A DNA stretch of 22,683 nucleotides from a bacterium. Its GTDB lineage: Bacteria > Planctomycetota > J058 > JAJDCP01. The notes under the pieces were generated by a model. It made no database searches, was not told the DNA's origin, and worked only from the letters and a program-made list of their open reading frames with translations. The first letter of the stretch is position 1, and every line of letters begins with the position of its first letter. Location of the stretch: positions 1 to 22,683 of the forward strand of contig JAUIEM010000132.1 in NCBI GenBank assembly GCA_030428695.1. The letters run 5' to 3'. Positions 4,057 through 11,560 of this stretch are shown piece by piece. Position numbers and translations under genes: made by a program.

Positions 4057-7000
4057 TCAGTCGAAGAGGGTGGCCCGTGCCTGTTCGACCGCGCGCAGCT
4101 CGTCCTCGAAGTCCGGGTTGCGCGGAACGAGCTCGAGGAGCAGCGCGTGGAGCTCCTCGAGCGAGGCCCGTGCCGCCGAGCTCTCGCCGCGGGCGAGCTC
4201 GGCCTCGAAGTGCCTCCACCGGGCCTTGACCAGGTGGGTCGCGATGAGCGGGTTGTCCGGCAGCGCCTCGTGGGCGCGCTGGGCGCTCTCCCGGGCATGC
4301 GCGTAGTGGTCCGCCGCCGCGGCGAAGTCGCCGCGGTCGAACAGGAGGTCGCCCGCTCGCAGGTTCAAGCGCGTCGCGTCCGCCAGCGGCGCGGGGGAGG
4401 GGTCGCGCGCGGCATGAAGGGTGGCGAGCTCCGCGGCCTGCCGGGTGTAGGCGAGCACCTCGGCGTCGTCGGCCGTGAGCGCGAGCAGCTGCTCGCAGCA
4501 GTAGCGGGCCTCGTTCGGGTCGAAGGTCTGCGGGGCGGGCTCGCGCAAGGCGAGGTTGTGCGCGAGGGACATCTCGAGCAGGTAGCGCCGGTCCTCGAGC
4601 CGCGGGCTGAGAAGCGCCAGGCGCAGCATGCAGCCGGCGATGTCGCGGCGCATGCCGACGTCGTCCGGTTCGTCCTCGATCCCCTGGCGCAGCTCGTCGA
4701 TCGCCTCCTCGAAGGCTGCGCGTGCGGCGTCCTGGTCGCCCGCGTGGTCGGAGATCTGGGCGAGGTAGATCAGGACCCGCGCGAGCCGCCGGCGCAGATC
4801 GGTGGTGACGCCGTGGGAGGCGCGCACCGCCCGCAACCGCGCCGTGGCCCGCTGCGCCCCCGCGCGGGCGGCGGACGGGTCGCCCGAGGAGGCGAGCGCG
4901 TAGGCGAGCTGTAGCTCGGCGTCGACGAGCTCGAGATGGAAGTGCAGGACGCCGGGCTGCGCCGCGATGATCATCTCCAGGGTCTCGATCGCCGTGCGGT
5001 ACATGCCGCGGGCGCGCTCGAGGTCGCCGCCGTCGGCGTAGAGCCGGGCGAGCTGGATGCAGGCGCTCGCGAGCTCGTCCTGGGCGGTCGCGCTCTGCGG
5101 ATTCTCGGCGACCGAGGCGGCGCGCAGGTCGATGCACATCACCAGGAGACTCTCCGCGGTCCGGTCGTCGCGGCGGCCCCGGGCGAGCCGCGCGCGGTTC
5201 TCGAGCACATCGGAGTAGGCGAAGCGCAGCTGGAACTCGTCCGGAAAGCGCGCGTAGAGGGGCTGGAGCAGATCCTGGGCGAGGCGCAGGGAACGCTCCG
5301 CATGCTCGGGGCGGCCGGCGCGGTCGAGCAGCCGGCCAAGATCGATGCGCGCCTTGGCGAGGCGGCGCCGTGCGGGGACGCTGGTCCCGTCGAGGGCGAG
5401 GGCCTCGGAGCCGAGCTCGACCGCCCTCTCCGCGTAGTCGAGCGCCATCGACAGCTCGCCCCGCAGCGCGAACAGGTCGCTGGCCTCGCCCGTCGCCATG
5501 CAGAGGAGGCTGAGAGCCGCGGCGGAAGAGGGGTCGAGGTCGACCGCGCTCCGGCCGATCTTCAGGGCCTTCTTCACCCACCCGGTCGCGGCGTCGAAGT
5601 CGCCCCCGGCGAGGCTGATCTGTCCGCGCGCCATCAGCGCCTGCAGCTTCAGCTCCCGGTCCTCGATCGTGTGCAGCTCGCGCAGCGCGATCGCGTTCTC
5701 GTACGCCCGGGCCGCCTGCGTCAGCGCTCCCACGTCCCGGAGCTGCAGACCGATGCGTTCCCAGGCGAAGGCGAGGGAGCGGCGGGTGGCGAGATCGAGG
5801 TCGCCCAGGGCAATGAGGCTGGCCTGCGCCCGCGGGACCGTTGCGCGCCAGGCCGGGTCGTCCGCCTGCAGCTCGTGGCCGGCGAGCAGGGCCAGGGCGA
5901 CGGCCTCCTGGCGGCGCGCCGCCGGTCCCTCCAGCTCCCCGGCGATCCGGGCGGACGCGCGCAGCTCGGGGAGGGAGTCGTCGTGCCGGACCTGGCCGAG
6001 CTGGGCGAGGGCACGGGCGGTCAGCAGCGAGCCGCTGTCGGCCCGCTGCAGGGAACGGGCGAGGCGTTCCCAGGCGCCCTTCGTCGTCGCCACGATCTCC
6101 TTGCGGGCCTGCGCCGCGTTCGGGTCGCCGAGCCGTTGCTCGAGGGCGTAGGTCGCGTCCGCGCTCATCGTCTCGAGCACATCGAAGGCGATGTGCGCTG
6201 CCTCCTCGGCGGCCGCCCGTTCCGCCAGGATGGTCTCGTTCTGCTCCGCGATCTGCATGTTCGCCATCTGCACCCAGGCCAGCCCGCCGGCCAGGCCGAG
6301 GAACAGCAGCGTCAGGCTGACGAGCAGCCCGTTGCGCAGGCGCCGCCGGGTCGATGCCTCCGCCGCCTGGCGTTGGCCGGCCCGCAGCACCTGCTCGCGC
6401 AGCGCGGGCGCTCCCTCCGCTTCCTCCAGACGCGCGAGCTGCGCGCTGGCCAGGCCGATGTCCCCCTGGCGCAGGGCGGCCCGCGCCCAGGCTTCGCGGG
6501 CCCGGGACTCGCCGGCGGCCGCGGCGCGGTTTCCCGCCCACAGCTTGCGGGCGGCGGCGAAGTCGTGGACGGCCTCGGAGAAGTCTTCGTACAGGCGCTC
6601 GCTGCTTCCCTCGACGCAGGTGCTGAGCAGCTCCTCGGCGCGGCGGGCGATCGCGATGCTCTCGCGGTGCTCGAGGTGGTCGCGCAGGGCCTGCTGGAAG
6701 TCCTCGACCGCGGCGAAGCGTTCCCGGGGCTCCGGCGCCAGGGCCCGCAGGCAGGCCTCCGCCAGCAGGGGATAGGCCGCGCAGACCTCGGCGGGCAGCG
6801 CGGGCGGATGGGGGGCGAGGGCGCTCTCGATCGCCTGCTCGAGCTTGCCCCGGTGGGGCGGGTGCCCGCACAGCAGCCGGTACAGGATCGCCCCGAGCAG
6901 GTAGATGTCGGTGCCCGGCCCGATCGCCGCGCCGTCCCCGCGAGCGAGCTCCGGGGGCACGTAGCAGGGGGTGCCGCAGGGGCTGGTGATCGCGCTCTTG

Positions 7001-7674
7001 TGGCGCAGGCGCGAGCGCGTCTCCGGCGGCCCGATCGCGCAGGCCAGCCCCCAGTCCATCAGCAGCACCTCGCCGAAGGCGCCGACCATCACGTTCGAGG
7101 GCTTGAGGTCGTTGTGGACGATGTTCCGGCTGTGGGCGAAGGCGACCGCGTCGCACACCTTGCGCAGCACCTCGAGGGCCGTGCGCAGGTCCTGGTTCTG
7201 GCGCAGGAGGTGGAACCAGGACGTGCCGCCGACCAGCTTCATCGCGATCGAAGGGCCGGCCTCGGCGTGGGTGAAGTCGTACACCGGGACGATGTTCGGG
7301 TGCTCGAGGCGGCCGGTGATCAGCGCCTCGGTCGCGAGGGCCCGGCGCGCGTGCGGCGCGTCGCCCCGGACGCGTTTGAGCGCGACCTCGCGGTCGAGGC
7401 TGGGCTGGTGCGCCCGGTAGACCTCGCCCATGCCGCCCTGGCCGAGCAGCCCGACCGGCACGAAGCCCGCCGCCGGCGGCTCGACCGGCGCGGTCGGGGG
7501 CGGCTCTGCCCCGGCCCCCTCGGTACACTCGGTCGCGGGATCTTCGGCGAGCGAGGGAATCGGCCGGTAGCTCGCGTTCGTCAGGCCGTCCGCGCGCAGC
7601 GAGCGGAAGGCGCTGCACAGGCTGTCCAGGGTCGCGTCTCGGTCCATGCGGGTCGTCCGGAAGGGGAGCTCCAT
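4057..7674 (-). CDS. Ser/Thr kinase with membrane segment and C-terminal TPR region
   Basis: A 1205-aa kinase-TM-TPR protein. Numbered from the ATG at 7674: the glycine loop LGQGGMGEV (77-85), Lys100, a catalytic loop HNDLKPSN (187-194) in which HRD has become HND, DWG (207-209) instead of DFG, and the activation segment CGTPCYVPPE (233-241). The kinase domain ends near 333. One hydrophobic span (about 449-468) is followed by some 720 residues of TPR-like helix pairs (for example AARAYENAIALREL, ALDYAERAVELGSEAL). The kinase should face the cytosol and the TPR array the periplasm. HND and DWG replacements with intact Lys, Asp and Asn are compatible with activity, and I recall DWG being common in planctomycete kinases. 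The start at 7674 (AGG upstream) is preferred over a longer frame to 7794 that would overlap the divergent regulator; 7647 is an alternative. Confidence 0.9.
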   Translation of the reverse strand: MELPFRTTRMDRDATLDSLCSAFRSLRADGLTNASYRPIPSLAEDPATECTEGAGAEPPPTAPVEPPAAGFVPVGLLGQGGMGEVYRAHQPSLDREVALKRVRGDAPHARRALATEALITGRLEHPNIVPVYDFTHAEAGPSIAMKLVGGTSWFHLLRQNQDLRTALEVLRKVCDAVAFAHSRNIVHNDLKPSNVMVGAFGEVLLMDWGLACAIGPPETRSRLRHKSAITSPCGTPCYVPPELARGDGAAIGPGTDIYLLGAILYRLLCGHPPHRGKLEQAIESALAPHPPALPAEVCAAYPLLAEACLRALAPEPRERFAAVEDFQQALRDHLEHRESIAIARRAEELLSTCVEGSSERLYEDFSEAVHDFAAARKLWAGNRAAAAGESRAREAWARAALRQGDIGLASAQLARLEEAEGAPALREQVLRAGQRQAAEASTRRRLRNGLLVSLTLLFLGLAGGLAWVQMANMQIAEQNETILAERAAAEEAAHIAFDVLETMSADATYALEQRLGDPNAAQARKEIVATTKGAWERLARSLQRADSGSLLTARALAQLGQVRHDDSLPELRASARIAGELEGPAARRQEAVALALLAGHELQADDPAWRATVPRAQASLIALGDLDLATRRSLAFAWERIGLQLRDVGALTQAARAYENAIALRELHTIEDRELKLQALMARGQISLAGGDFDAATGWVKKALKIGRSAVDLDPSSAAALSLLCMATGEASDLFALRGELSMALDYAERAVELGSEALALDGTSVPARRRLAKARIDLGRLLDRAGRPEHAERSLRLAQDLLQPLYARFPDEFQLRFAYSDVLENRARLARGRRDDRTAESLLVMCIDLRAASVAENPQSATAQDELASACIQLARLYADGGDLERARGMYRTAIETLEMIIAAQPGVLHFHLELVDAELQLAYALASSGDPSAARAGAQRATARLRAVRASHGVTTDLRRRLARVLIYLAQISDHAGDQDAARAAFEEAIDELRQGIEDEPDDVGMRRDIAGCMLRLALLSPRLEDRRYLLEMSLAHNLALREPAPQTFDPNEARYCCEQLLALTADDAEVLAYTRQAAELATLHAARDPSPAPLADATRLNLRAGDLLFDRGDFAAAADHYAHARESAQRAHEALPDNPLIATHLVKARWRHFEAELARGESSAARASLEELHALLLELVPRNPDFEDELRAVEQARATLFD

Positions 7675-7756
7675 CTCAGGGTGCCTCGTCTGCTGCGGGC
7701 TGACAAGCTTCGGCGCGGACTTGCAGGAACGCTCCGGGCGCGGGAGAATCGAAGCC
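7675..7756. promoter_or_regulatory. Divergent intergenic region, kinase-TPR / FHA regulator
   Basis: These 82 bp must hold the promoters of both divergent genes. On the plus strand a weak pair, TTGCAG (7721-7726) and GAGAAT (7744-7749) with 17 bp between, would start transcription almost at the ATG. The inverted repeat GCTTCG (7707-7712) / CGAAGC (7750-7755) is short and widely spaced. No convincing promoter is visible on the minus strand. Confidence 0.3.
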
Positions 7757-9223
7757 ATGGCAGAAGAAACCGTCGACGTCACCGCCACCGGCACCGGCAG
7801 CCGCGCTCCCGCTCCGGCCCGTCAGGTGCCCGCGCTGGTGCTGCTGTGGTGCCGGGATGAGCCCGAGCGCGTCGGCGAGGTCATCCTGCTGCTCAACGAC
7901 CTGCGCACCTCGCTGATCGCCGGCCGCGCCTCGGACAGCTCGAGCGGGCCGCGCGCGGCCCTGGTGCGGCAGCTGCCGGGCCGCAACGAGACGACCGGCG
8001 ACTTCCAGAGCAAGACGATCTCCCGCGAGCAGCTGCGGCTGACGCCGCTGAGCGAGACGCGCCTGCAGGTCACCAACCTCGGCCGCGGCACCCTGCGCAA
8101 GGACGGCATGGCGGCGCAGAGCTTCGTGCTCGATCCCGGCGAGCTGCTCCTGCTCGAGCGGCGCGCCCTGTTCCTCGCGACCACCCGCCCGCTGGTGCTG
8201 CGCTTCGAGGCCCTCGCCGGCCTGCGCGGCCATCGCTTCGGCGAAGCGGACGCCTGGGGGCTGGTCGGGGAGAGCCCCGCGGCCTGGGCGCTGCGGGCGC
8301 GGCTCGCCTTCGTCGGGGCGCGCGCGGCCCACGTGCTGATCACCGGCGCGAGCGGCACCGGCAAGGAGCTGGTCGCCCAGGCCCTGCACGGCCTGTCCGC
8401 CCGGAGGAGCAAGGCGCTGGTCGCGCGCAACGCGGCGACCATCCCCGACAGCCTGGCCGACGCCGAGCTGTTCGGCAACGTCAAGCACTATCCGAACCCG
8501 GGGACGCCCGAGCGGCCGGGGCTGATCGGCAGCGCCGACGGCGCGAGCCTGTTCCTCGACGAGTTCGCCGAGCTGCCCGAAGCGTTGCAGGCGAAGCTGC
8601 TGCGGGTGCTCGACCGCGGCGAGTACCACCGGCTCGGCGAGGGCCGCGCGCGGGTCTCCGACTTCCGGCTGCTCGCTGCGACCAACCGTCCGCTCAGCTA
8701 CCTCAAGCATGACGTCCTCGCGCGCTTCAAGATCCAGCTCGAAGTGCCCGACCTCAACGCCCGGCGGGCCGACATCCCGCTGCTCGCCCGCTTCCTGTTG
8801 CGCCGCATCGCCGCCGAGGACCCGGCCCTCGCCGGGCGTTTCTTCCCCGACGGTGACCCGGCCGGTCTGCCGCGCATCAGCGCCGAGCTGACCGCGCAGC
8901 TGGTCCGGCACCCGTACAGCACCCACGTGCGGGAGCTCGAGAGCCTGCTGTGGAAGGCGATGGCGCGGGCGACCGGCGGCACGCTCCATGTCGTCGACGC
9001 CGGGGCGCCGGACTCCGATCCGCCCTCCTCCGCGCCGCCCTCCGATCCGCCGTCGGCGGCCCCGAGCGCGGGGGAGTGGACGGCCGCGGAGCTGCAGGCC
9101 TGCCTCGACAAGCACGACGGGCGCCAGGAGCCGGTCTGGCGGGAGCTCGGCATGAGCAGCCGCTACGTGCTCAAACGCCTGGTCAAGAAGTACGATCTCC
9201 GGGTGCGGGGACGCGGCGGGTAG
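7757..9223 (+). CDS. FHA-AAA+-HTH regulator of sigma-54 activator type, lacking GAFTGA
   Basis: A 488-aa cytosolic regulator. An FHA-like domain (about 45-152) shows SREQLRL (89-95) and [11 protein letters not shown] (107-117), matching the phosphothreonine-binding loops. The AAA+ domain follows: Walker A GASGTGKE (197-204), Walker B SLFLDEF (264-270), sensor I ATN (308-310) and sensor II region HVRELES (390-396). After a Pro/Ser linker, a Fis-like helix-turn-helix spans 445-480 ([17 protein letters not shown]). Normal sigma-54 activators have GAFTGA after ELFG; here [19 protein letters not shown] (237-255) takes its place, so contact with sigma-54 is doubtful. I recall similar variants in myxobacteria and planctomycetes. 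The start at 7757 has GGGAG 10 nt upstream; a longer frame to 7646 would overlap the divergent kinase. The nearby kinase could supply the phosphothreonine signal. The 3' end overlaps an antisense small ORF. Confidence 0.88.
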
Positions 9224-9347
9224 GCAGCCCCTTGCCGGTCAGCTTGCGCAGCACGGCGTCGATGTGCCGGAAGGTGGTCTGCTCGGTCGTCAGCTCGTCG
9301 TCGATCAAGCGCTCGTCGATCGGGTGGTTGCGCAGGGCCTCTTCCAT
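9183..9347 (-). CDS. Small ORF (54 aa) behind a sigma-54 promoter
   Basis: The predicted 54-aa product begins MEEALRNHPIDERL and ends PAPGDRTS. It is helical and highly charged, with no cysteine, signal peptide or membrane segment, and I recognise no family. Three things support it: a near-ideal Shine-Dalgarno (AAGGAGGAA, with GGAGG 7 nt before the ATG), a consensus sigma-54 promoter (9395-9380) predicting transcription from about 9369, and a 5' leader of only about 22 nt. Its last 13 codons and stop (41 bp) are antisense to the 3' end of the FHA-AAA+ regulator, so its transcript would also be antisense to that mRNA. It may act as a peptide, as an antisense RNA, or both. It could also be the first gene of a unit whose only product is this peptide, since no further minus-strand gene follows. 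Confidence 0.6.
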   Translation of the reverse strand: MEEALRNHPIDERLIDDELTTEQTTFRHIDAVLRKLTGKGLPTRRVPAPGDRTS

Positions 9348-9379
9348 CGTTCTTCCTCCTTCGGCTTTCCGTGGCTCGG

Positions 9380-9395
9380 TGCAAGGAGCGTGCCA
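9380..9395 (-). promoter_or_regulatory. Sigma-54 (RpoN) promoter
   Basis: On the minus strand the sequence reads TGGCACG-N4-TTGCA, matching the -24/-12 consensus at every defined base. The GG (9394-9393) and GC (9382-9381) are exactly 10 bp apart. Initiation is expected near 9369, 22 nt before the ATG of the 54-aa ORF. Such a promoter needs an enhancer-binding AAA+ activator; the G-rich repeats upstream (9451-9492) are candidate binding sites. Confidence 0.75.
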
Positions 9396-9427
9396 CGACT
9401 GAGCGGTCCGGGGCCTTGTAGTTGCGT

Positions 9428-9492
9428 GGGAGTGGGCGGGGCGGCGCGGGCGGTGGGCGCCCGTCGGTGGGCGGGATGGGCGGTCGTCGCCC
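9428..9492. repeat. G-rich block: potential quadruplex, direct repeats, palindromes
   Basis: Five runs of three or more G with loops of 1-6 nt (9428-9457) fit the G-quadruplex pattern. The 9-bp direct repeat CGGTGGGCG occurs at 9451-9459 and 9465-9473. The palindrome GGGCGCCC lies at 9455-9462 and the hairpin GGGCG/CGCCC at 9478-9482/9488-9492. The block lies between the divergent sigma-54 promoter and the polysaccharide operon promoter, at about 60 to 125 bp upstream of the sigma-54 start, where enhancers usually sit. Confidence 0.45.
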
Positions 9493-9511
9493 GCGGGCTG
9501 CTCGACAGGTC

Positions 9512-9540
9512 TTCGCAGGAGACACGGCTTGCGCTATAGT
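9512..9540 (+). promoter_or_regulatory. Sigma-70-like promoter of the polysaccharide operon
   Basis: TTCGCA (9512-9517) and TATAGT (9535-9540) are separated by 17 bp, giving 4 of 6 and 5 of 6 consensus matches. Transcription would begin near 9547, leaving about 167 nt before the preferred start of the sugar transferase gene. TATAGT stands out in this very GC-rich intergenic region. Confidence 0.5.
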
Positions 9541-9546
9541 CGCGGG

Positions 9547-9713
9547 CACGCGAAAGTGGCAATCTCCAGCCGAGGGCCCGGAGCGGAACAGGTCAGGTAT
9601 GGGGGCGCGCCTGCGGCGTGATCGCCTCACTCCGCGGCCTCCGGGCCCTCGCGACGAAAAATCCCTGTGCAGCAACCGGGCTTGTTCCTCTCCGGTCCCC
9701 AAGGACGCTGGCC
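9547..9713 (+). promoter_or_regulatory. Structured 5' leader of the polysaccharide operon
   Basis: A perfect 13-bp inverted repeat (CGAGGGCCCGGAG, 9571-9583; its complement at 9639-9651) would close a 55-nt internal region. Inside it GCGGA (9583-9587; its first base is shared with the outer arm) can pair with TCCGC (9631-9635), and GGCG/CGCC (9615-9618/9623-9626) forms a hairpin with a TGAT loop. Further down, GTCC-CCAA-GGAC (9695-9706) would cover the AAGGA ribosome-binding site at 9701-9705. This looks like a folded regulatory RNA, perhaps a riboswitch or protein-binding leader. I cannot match it to the c-di-GMP, cobalamin or fluoride consensus as I remember them. Ordinary GC-rich self-complementarity remains possible, though a perfect 13-bp stem is long for chance. 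Confidence 0.45.
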
Positions 9714-10397
9714 TTGCATCAACCAACCCCGTCCGACAGTGCCGTGCATGTCGATGAGCCGATCGAAGTCGCTCCGGACGCGCGCCGGGCCGGCCGAGAC
9801 CTCCCCAACGTGTCTACGGGCTACGACCCGCGCCCTCTCGAGCTCGCGGCGTGCGTCCTCGCCGCGCCCTTCGCGCTGCCCGTCGGGCTCGGCATCGCCC
9901 TGGGCCTGTGCGCGTGCTACGGCTATGCCCCGCTCTACACCGAGCTGCGGGTCGGGCGCGGCGGGCGGGAGTTCCGGCTGCTCAAGTTCCGCACCCTGAC
10001 CGGGCCCGCGCCACGGGCCGACGATCTGACCGGGCGCCTGGGGAAGAGCGCGCCTCCGGCCTCCAGCGCGGGGCGTTTCGCGCGTTTTCTGCGGCGCTCC
10101 AGCCTCGATGAGCTGCCCCAGCTGCTCAATGTACTGCGCGGAGAGATGGCCCTGGTCGGGCCGCGACCGATGCCGCGGGCCGAGCTGGCGCGGCGCTTCG
10201 GGGCGGACGGCCGCCGGGTCGTGTCGGTGCGGCCGGGGCTGACCGGCCTGTGGCAGGTCAGCGGCCGCAACGATGTCGACGACGCGACCCGGAGGGCCCT
10301 CGACCTGCGCTATGTCGAGGAGCGCGGCCCCCGGCTCGACGCGGCGATTCTGCTGCGCACCGTCGGCGCCGTGCTGTCCGGGCGGGGGGCGTACTGA
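9714..10397 (+). CDS. Priming sugar transferase (polyprenyl-phosphate glycosyl-1-phosphate transferase)
   Basis: Transfers a sugar-1-phosphate from a nucleotide sugar to undecaprenyl phosphate at the inner membrane, the first step of polysaccharide repeat-unit synthesis. Counting from TTG 9714 (227 aa): one hydrophobic segment (about 43-70), KFRTL (91-95), the catalytic-region motif SSLDELPQLLNVLRGEM (129-145), LVGPRP (147-152) and RPGLTGLWQVSGRN (173-186), all typical of the bacterial sugar transferase family. It is the short form (about 200 aa) without the extra N-terminal membrane domain of WcaJ/WbaP. The start is uncertain: TTG 9714 has AAGGA 8 nt upstream; the frame is open back to a GTG at 9618 without a good ribosome-binding site, and GTG 9744 or 9810 are other options. 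It is the first gene of the operon and its stop overlaps the next start region. Confidence 0.9.
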   Translation: MHQPTPSDSAVHVDEPIEVAPDARRAGRDLPNVSTGYDPRPLELAACVLAAPFALPVGLGIALGLCACYGYAPLYTELRVGRGGREFRLLKFRTLTGPAPRADDLTGRLGKSAPPASSAGRFARFLRRSSLDELPQLLNVLRGEMALVGPRPMPRAELARRFGADGRRVVSVRPGLTGLWQVSGRNDVDDATRRALDLRYVEERGPRLDAAILLRTVGAVLSGRGAY

Positions 10398-11560
10398 TCC
10401 GCATCCTGCACGTCGTCAAGTGGCTCGCTGCCTCCCCGCGCAGCGGAGGCGCGCTGCGCGCCCGGCACCTCGCCGAGGGGCTCGCCCGCTTCGCGACCGT
10501 CGACGCGGTCGGCTTCCTTCCGCCCGACGCCCCCACCCCGGTCCACGCGCCCTACGGGCAGGTCGCGACCCTGCCGCCCCGGCGCGCGCCGGCGGCGATG
10601 CTCGCCGGGCTGGCGGCCGGGCTGCCACTGCGCGGCCTGCGCTTCGCAGTGCCCGCGTTGCGCGCGCGTGTCGCGGCGATGCTGGACGGGGGCCGCTACG
10701 ACGCGGTCCAGGTCGAGGAGCTCGCGATGCTGGCGCGGCTGCCGGTGCTCCCGCCGGGGACTCCGCTCGTCTACAGCGCGCACAACGTCGAGTCCGAGCT
10801 CGCCGCGCGCCTGCTCGGCCGCCTGGGGCCCTGGCTCGCTGGAGCGGAGCGCGACCGCACGGAGCGCCTCGAGCGACAGGCCCTGCGTCGGGCCGCCTTC
10901 AGCCTGGCGGTCTCGGCTCGCGACCAGCGGCGGCTCCGCGCGCTCGTCCCGGAGGCGCGGGTCGAGGTGCTCGAGAACGGCGCCGCCGCCCGCCTCGTGC
11001 CCGGGCCGCCGGTGCGCGCGCCGGAGCTCCTGTTCCTCGGCTGTCTGGGCTGGGCTCCGAACCGCGCTGGCCTGGACTGGTTCCTGCGCGCGGTGCTGCC
11101 GGCGCTGCGCCGGCGGGTGCCCGCGACGCGGGTGCGGGTGGTCGGCAGCGAGCTCGGCCGCTGTCTGGCCTGGCGCCTGCGTCGCCACGGGGTCGCCGCG
11201 CACGCCGACGTGCCGGACGTCCTGCCCTTCCTGCAGCGCGCCCGGCTGCTGGTGATCCCGCTCCTGGCCGGGGCCGGTACCCGCATCAAGGCGATCGAGG
11301 CCTGGGCCGCGGGCCTGCCCGTCGTGTCGACGGCGCTCGGCGTCGAGGGGCTCGAGGTGCAGCCGGGCGTCGACGCGCTGGTCGCGGACGGGGCGGAGGA
11401 ATTCGCCCGCGCGGTCGCCCGCGTGCTGTGCGACGACGCCCTCTACGGCGCGCTGCGGAGCGCCGGACGCGCGCGGGCCCGTGCGCTGCGCTGGGAGAGC
11501 CTGACCGCGCGCCTGGAGCCGTGGTACCGCGCCCTGGTCGCGCAGGAGACGGCGCGATGA
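10394..11560 (+). CDS. Glycosyltransferase, GT4 (GT-B fold)
   Basis: Probably adds a sugar to the lipid-linked repeat unit at the cytosolic face of the membrane. The 388-aa product starts with a typical GT4 opening (IRILHVVKWLAASPRSGGALRAR) and has YSAHNVESE (127-135), a C-terminal Rossmann half from about 210, and the donor-site region GAGTRIKAIEAWAAGLPVV (293-311) followed by STALGVEGL. The start is unusual: no ATG, GTG or TTG lies near the expected N-terminus. CTG at 10394 overlaps the upstream stop as CTGA, with a G-rich stretch before it. The only upstream start, GTG 10250, would add 48 Arg-rich residues inside the sugar transferase gene and is unlikely. Translational coupling to the upstream gene is probable. 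The closest relatives I recall are GT4 enzymes of exosortase-type polysaccharide clusters. Confidence 0.88.
   Translation: MIRILHVVKWLAASPRSGGALRARHLAEGLARFATVDAVGFLPPDAPTPVHAPYGQVATLPPRRAPAAMLAGLAAGLPLRGLRFAVPALRARVAAMLDGGRYDAVQVEELAMLARLPVLPPGTPLVYSAHNVESELAARLLGRLGPWLAGAERDRTERLERQALRRAAFSLAVSARDQRRLRALVPEARVEVLENGAAARLVPGPPVRAPELLFLGCLGWAPNRAGLDWFLRAVLPALRRRVPATRVRVVGSELGRCLAWRLRRHGVAAHADVPDVLPFLQRARLLVIPLLAGAGTRIKAIEAWAAGLPVVSTALGVEGLEVQPGVDALVADGAEEFARAVARVLCDDALYGALRSAGRARARALRWESLTARLEPWYRALVAQETAR

Follow-up and report, generated by a model that had tools for sequence, protein, structure and literature searches.

A putative sigma-54-dependent small-protein gene placed tail-to-tail with the gene of an AAA+ regulator lacking GAFTGA

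Sigma-54 promoters located beside an activator gene are known from the pairs pspF/pspA and rtcR/rtcBA, in which the activators possess the GAFTGA motif and their genes are divergent from the target. In the sections of PMC3162934 dealing with this motif, loss of GAFTGA is treated as loss of sigma-54 activation, and TyrR, DhaR and HupR are described as unconventional activators devoid of it. GAFTGA is also missing from NtrC of Rhodobacter capsulatus and of Caulobacter, as well as from VspR, and such proteins, Caulobacter NtrC included, act at sigma-70 promoters or otherwise without sigma-54, with a link to envelope polysaccharide (in the relevant part of PMC10274813). As regards small genes, laoB of E. 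coli O157:H7 is described as a taxonomically restricted small protein gene antiparallel to the gene of a CadC-like regulator (in the account given by PMC5810103).

The window analyzed here, i.e., the whole stretch of 22,683 nucleotides (G+C 73%), probably carries on its minus strand a real small-protein gene that is lineage-restricted and sigma-54-dependent and lies tail-to-tail with the gene of an unconventional FHA-like AAA+ regulator. As with pspF/pspA and rtcR/rtcBA, the putative sigma-54 promoter stands beside an activator-like gene, but here the genes are tail-to-tail and GAFTGA has been lost. In this last respect the window regulator resembles NtrC, VspR, TyrR, DhaR and HupR, being a protein of the AAA+ enhancer-binding type without the sigma-54 contact motif (as these are presented in PMC10274813 and PMC3162934); however, while both NtrC cases described in PMC10274813 are loop deletions, the window regulator has kept the length of the loop and has a conserved substitute in it. 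The small gene is similar to laoB in that it is taxonomically restricted and antisense to a transcription-regulator gene, but laoB, according to PMC5810103, sits inside the regulator gene, its origin being ascribed to overprinting, whereas 41 of the 165 bp of the window gene overlap and the remainder is intergenic coding DNA. Overprinting is not needed for the window gene. From the point of view of annotation, this would be a clear case in which homology-based methods would dismiss a small gene, its support consisting of a perfect promoter, a Shine-Dalgarno (SD) sequence and a codon signal confined to one frame. The family of GAFTGA-less, FHA-like AAA+ regulators, a by-product of the analysis, may matter more than the small gene.

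The small open reading frame and its promoter element

The features on this side of the window are the following:

9380..9395, minus strand: sigma-54 -24/-12 element TGGCACG-CTCC-TTGCA (12/12 defined bases)
9369..9370, minus strand: predicted transcription start (from the spacing to the -12 GC), about 22 nt ahead of the ATG
9355..9361, minus strand: SD sequence AAGGAGG (read from the sequence), 7 nt ahead of the ATG at 9347
9183..9347, minus strand: 54-codon ORF (protein P0001; translation, codon-position G+C, codon likelihood)
9183..9223, both strands: tail-to-tail coding overlap of small ORF and regulator, 41 bp (from the coordinates)
7757..9223, plus strand: FHA-like/AAA+/HTH regulator without GAFTGA (loop HYPNPG; Sigma54_activat E 2.6e-36, ZraR alignment)
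4057..7794, minus strand: Ser/Thr kinase with a TPR tail, divergent from the regulator (Pkinase E 1.2e-37)

The initial annotation had reported a sigma-54 consensus intact at every defined base and spaced for a start near 9369, followed by a near-ideal SD sequence and a 54-codon ORF (9347-9183) that converges on the regulator and overlaps its 3' end by 41 bp of coding sequence; all these points were confirmed and the coordinates are right. The site TGGCACGCTCCTTGCA (9395-9380, minus strand) is an exact TGGCACG-N4-TTGCW, with the -24 GG at 9394-9393 and the -12 GC at 9382-9381 of the 16-bp frame, and it is the single exact match in the window, none being found in 100 dinucleotide shuffles. From the position of the -12 GC, transcription would start at about 9369-9370, and the element itself suggests that the promoter of the small gene is sigma-54 dependent.

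In high-G+C DNA, true genes have a G+C content that is high at the third codon position and low at the second. Outside the regulator overlap, the small ORF has G+C values of 0.66/0.34/0.98 at positions 1/2/3, to be compared with 0.61/0.33/0.98 in another gene of the window (the kinase ORF 47-1003), a pattern reached by 0.97% of the 32,493 stretches of the window without a stop codon, a set that also contains the true genes. The codon log-likelihood, based on the codon counts of four window genes (2,213 codons), amounts to +39.7 bits in the frame of the ORF and to at most +0.9 in the remaining five, the signal thus being present in one frame only, and the intergenic DNA just ahead of the promoter shows no difference among codon positions, the G+C being 0.73-0.74 at each. 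Within the 41-bp overlap the third-position G+C of the small ORF drops to 0.69, as expected since the code of the regulator has priority there. On these statistics the ORF is very probably protein-coding, and it is predicted to be translated. It had been presented as unlisted, which is not wholly the case, since an identical 54-aa protein, from a contig of the same length as the window (22,683 bases), is present in the protein collection, where a gene caller had evidently called it. A single-sequence AlphaFold2 model of this protein consists of one helix (residues 12-37; mean pLDDT 67.7).

The motif and the small protein in other genomes

The behavior of the promoter motif was evaluated in seven genomes from the order of Nannocystis, picked for having relatives of the regulator, in which the exact TGGCACG-N4-TTGCW is found 42 times against 2 for the reversed pattern, i.e., it is 21-fold commoner. 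When up to one mismatch is allowed, the sites are no more numerous than those of the reversed pattern (745 vs 794 in 13 genomes), so that in those genomes the exact motif alone is informative, and the exact form is the one present in the window. The last base is a T at 41/42 of the exact sites of the Nannocystis-order genomes, and the window site ends in A, the rare form there (1/42), a point that speaks against the promoter. In a sample of 188 Myxococcota genomes, the T-ending motif was found in 163, and the A-ending motif was counted 280 times (control, 74), with occurrences in 85 genomes; in 32 of the 188, those belonging to the order of G239 (the genome carrying the top-scoring regulator relative among the genomes searched), the A-ending counts are 114 against 10. 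The A-ending motif, to judge from these counts, is apparently used by some of the Myxococcota.

An SD sequence and a coding-like ORF starting 15-120 nt downstream were found behind 11 of the 58 exact sites with retrieved DNA, while random positions at the same loci gave 216/6000. At random positions of the window the figure was 436/6000 (82 with an ORF shorter than 100 aa), so an ORF behind the site is supporting and not decisive evidence, being by itself not rare. Taken together, sequence statistics and the behavior of the same motif in relatives make the pair of promoter and translated ORF well supported.

Some side observations were made on these sites. The final base of the motif varies by lineage, with T in the Nannocystis order and A as a frequent alternative in the order of G239. 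A 99-aa protein starting with MNTRQIVL is encoded 27-29 nt behind an exact site at four loci from Nannocystis relatives (L060, L065, L070 and L073); the window gene is like it in that an exact site is followed by a short leader, an SD sequence and a small ORF, but the MNTRQIVL proteins are larger, have a hydrophobic N-terminus, are repeated in several genomes and show by eye no likeness to the 54-aa protein. At three other loci (L053, L058 and L077), exact sites lie 63-70 nt ahead of a gene beginning MPNPSPAAPRILIVDDEP, which appears to encode a response regulator.

As for the peptide, the initial annotation recognized no family, and the same outcome was obtained within the protein collection, 377 plus 29 genomes, viral contigs, Pfam and NCBIfam. 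Among 5.8 billion proteins, with those far longer than 54 aa excluded, the single candidate was the peptide itself, and no match at E 0.01 was found in 377 Myxococcota genomes, in a search run without a positive control. In 29 nearer genomes, matches at E 10 occurred in 20 (best E 0.0485) and were noise-like, no relative was confirmed in viral contigs, and searches of Pfam and NCBIfam gave no family, two Pfam matches at E 0.081 being disregarded. The small-protein gene is, on this evidence, most likely lineage-restricted. Six-frame matches were inspected at L029-L032, L034 and L037; the best in the 29 genomes (L029) contains an internal stop and is accompanied by no site with at least 10/12 promoter bases, and was judged to be a chance match.

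The regulator, its relatives and its neighbors

The regulator ORF opens at 7646, and the database copy (P0004) is 488 aa long, pointing to 7757 as the probable start. The protein contains an AAA+ sigma-54 interaction domain (PF00158, E 2.6e-36) in which Walker A and B are present, and its structure model has a pLDDT of 88.1. In the alignment with ZraR, however, KGAFTGAD of ZraR is replaced by KHYPNPGT. GAFTGA is found in 0/38 of the relatives from Myxococcota genomes and in 0/120 of the best 120 of 893 protein-collection matches (E 1e-100; the protein of the window included), counts which describe the family and not an independent sample, since the relatives were picked by similarity. In the same best 120 of 893, the loop retains its canonical length and fits [YFH]P..G in 118 proteins, NYPNPG being the commonest form, and Walker A is kept in 120/120. 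The set of 38 excludes L001 and L002, which duplicate the loci L005 and L008; also excluded are L003 and L004, distant matches from other groups that are 31-32% identical and possess GAFTGA and GAFTNA, respectively. The family comprises the window protein (7757-9223), P0004-P0123, L005-L028 and L079-L092; it is large, with many members from Myxococcota, and several of them are named 'sigma 54-interacting' by their sources.

The initial designation 'sigma-54-type regulator' is misleading because GAFTGA is missing, and for the same reason the protein is probably unable to open the small-gene promoter in the canonical way. That a 'sigma-54-type' family has, in these alignments, a conserved substitute of equal length for the GAFTGA contact loop is an unexpected result. 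A literature search, with most subscription journals outside its scope, found neither NYPNPG nor any paper on myxobacterial FHA regulators forming a family without GAFTGA.

The N-terminus, labeled FHA in the initial annotation, can be called FHA-like. The window protein has no Pfam match to FHA even at E 10, while weak matches to PF00498 (E <=0.1, best E 0.0015) were obtained with 6 of the 31 family members aligned. G56, R57 and S89 are invariant across the 31 aligned members, and the N-terminal part of the model is made mostly of beta strands. In a fold search with the model, the best 50 matches were all to sigma-54 activators (AAA+), an outcome that bears on the AAA+ part.

The kinase gene is divergent from the regulator, its true start being probably further in than 7794. 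Kinase matches occur in the 1.5-kb flanks of 12/38 regulator relatives, compared with 3/80 other loci, and, given the divergent kinase adjoining the regulator and these kinases flanking its relatives, a signal from kinase to FHA is plausible. In four DNA relatives (L123-L126) treated with a rough gene finder, the kinase is the one gene shared with the window, in 3/4 of them. Opposite the kinase gene (4057-7794, minus strand) lies a plus-strand ORF of 974 aa (4936-7860) without a family match, which is probably a shadow ORF and not a gene.

The arrangement of promoter and convergent small ORF was found at 0/37 regulator relatives with usable flanks (37 instead of 38 because L016 lacks downstream DNA). 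Convergent small coding-like ORFs of some kind are present at 2/37 of those with downstream room, neither being like that of the window, and an exact sigma-54 site is present in the flanks of 1/38 (L009), 349 bp downstream and in the direction of the regulator; behind that site a script found no coding-like ORF with an SD sequence. In two Nannocystis relatives a different ORF directly follows the regulator in the same direction, and in L079 the gene in this position, also in the same direction, is presumably rfbC. Conservation of the peptide and of the promoter, which the initial annotation had put forward as a check, was looked for in these relatives and not found; the test is a weak one, and the absence of the arrangement is weak evidence, because the relatives with DNA are just about 40-57% identical at the regulator. 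Closer regulators are known as proteins (P0005, 68% identical, from a contig of 29,340 bases, and P0006, 67%, from one of 3,304 bases). A clustering of sigma-54 sites near the regulator family, suggested by sites agreeing with 11 of the 12 defined bases, was dropped in view of the 745 vs 794 counts and of the exact site at 1/38 loci.

The intergenic gap and the readings of the locus

Between the regulator and the sugar-transferase gene, the following elements were recognized:

9448..9462, no strand: dyad GGGCG-N5-CGCCC, candidate enhancer site, centre at -86 from the predicted sigma-54 start
9478..9492, no strand: second dyad GGGCG-N5-CGCCC, centre at -116, 30 bp from the first
9512..9540, plus strand: weak sigma-70-like promoter directed at the sugar-transferase gene (one consensus match in 7500-10400, where 0.1 would be expected)
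9618..10397, plus strand: bacterial sugar transferase, first of a glycosyltransferase cluster (Bac_transf E 2.8e-41; start uncertain)

Sigma-54 enhancer sites are expected about 80-200 bp upstream of the start. The two dyads are identical copies separated by about three helical turns; the pair was found by looking, and while any pair of dyads with identical arms appeared in 12/3000 local dinucleotide shuffles, two copies of GGGCG-N5-CGCCC appeared in 0/3000. Single copies are present at 4/48 loci (L020, L028, L031 and L047), of which L020 and L028 belong to the more distant relatives of the regulator, and no copy is present at the closest ones. The dyads are candidates for the enhancer of the sigma-54 promoter, but, relative to the predicted start of the sigma-70-like promoter, their positions are about -92 and -62, and from this placement they could serve either side.

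In the reading that we consider probable, sigma-54 RNA polymerase would wait at 9395-9380 until an activator sitting on the two dyads (9448-9492) opens the promoter. Because the neighboring FHA-like AAA+ regulator has no GAFTGA, a GAFTGA-bearing activator from elsewhere in the cell would be the likelier opener. The mRNA would have a leader of about 22 nt and give a largely helical 54-residue protein, our guess being that it serves as a small regulator or adaptor whose production depends on an enhancer-controlled condition. Since the small gene ends within the 3' end of the regulator gene, the two transcription units would converge, and the 41-bp overlap may lead to mutual interference through collision or antisense effects, a compact gene border being the simpler reading.

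The initial annotation had left open a peptide, an antisense RNA or a feedback device; the coding signal favors the peptide, and the other two are unsupported. As an antisense RNA, the transcript would matter by extending across the regulator gene, with the ORF being incidental, which agrees with the convergent overlap and with a scan that found no minus-strand terminator-like site from 9183 to 7790, so that read-through is possible. Nevertheless, the part of the ORF outside the overlap has a strong coding signal and an SD sequence, the transcript is no more stable than its shuffles (z 0.66) and an Rfam search of the window with a cutoff of E 1 was empty. Such a coding signal points to a protein product and not to RNA alone, and this alternative is very unlikely. 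In a feedback device, the adjacent regulator, switched by the kinase, would control the sigma-54 promoter and would in turn be restrained by the 54-aa product or by the transcript encoding it. The adjacency of the two genes speaks for it, as do the paired dyads at enhancer distance, the kinase matches around relatives (12/38 vs 3/80), the site downstream of the regulator in L009 and the intact ATP site (Walker A in 120/120 of the best 120 of 893). On the other hand, GAFTGA is replaced in the window regulator and found in 0/38 myxobacterial relatives and 0/120 of the same best matches, the exact sigma-54 site occurs in the flanks of 1/38 relatives, and the convergent ORFs at 2/37 are unlike that of the window. 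Without the sigma-54 contact loop, the regulator is unlikely to activate, in a simple circuit, the promoter antisense to its own gene, and the feedback explanation as a whole is judged unlikely too.

The promoter match might also be due to chance, with the ORF transcribed in some other way or being the decaying remnant of a longer gene. This would be consistent with the lack of detected conservation and with the rarity of the TTGCA ending in the seven Nannocystis-order genomes (1/42 exact sites). Against it stand the exact match, reached in 0/100 shuffles, a promoter position that fits the spacing of SD and ATG, a codon signal that is intact up to the overlap and the excess of TTGCA in the wider Myxococcota sample (280 vs 74), and we regard it as distinctly unlikely. 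A more elaborate scheme, highly improbable in our view, would make the 394-bp gap (9224-9617) a two-way switch in which the GAFTGA-less regulator, informed by the kinase, occupies the dyads and the 54-aa product feeds back. Rightward, with the dyads at about -92/-62, the regulator would act on the polysaccharide cluster through its sigma-70 promoter, while leftward (dyads at -86/-116) it would block or help the sigma-54 promoter. If this were true, the NYPNPG-like loop would represent a new contact of an AAA+ regulator with RNA polymerase.

Further glycosyltransferases are located downstream of the sugar-transferase gene. The leader of this gene (9571-9699), whose fold is no better than that of shuffles (z -0.07), contains long inverted repeats, and the segment 9574-9598 can pair either with 9639-9651 or with 9675-9699.
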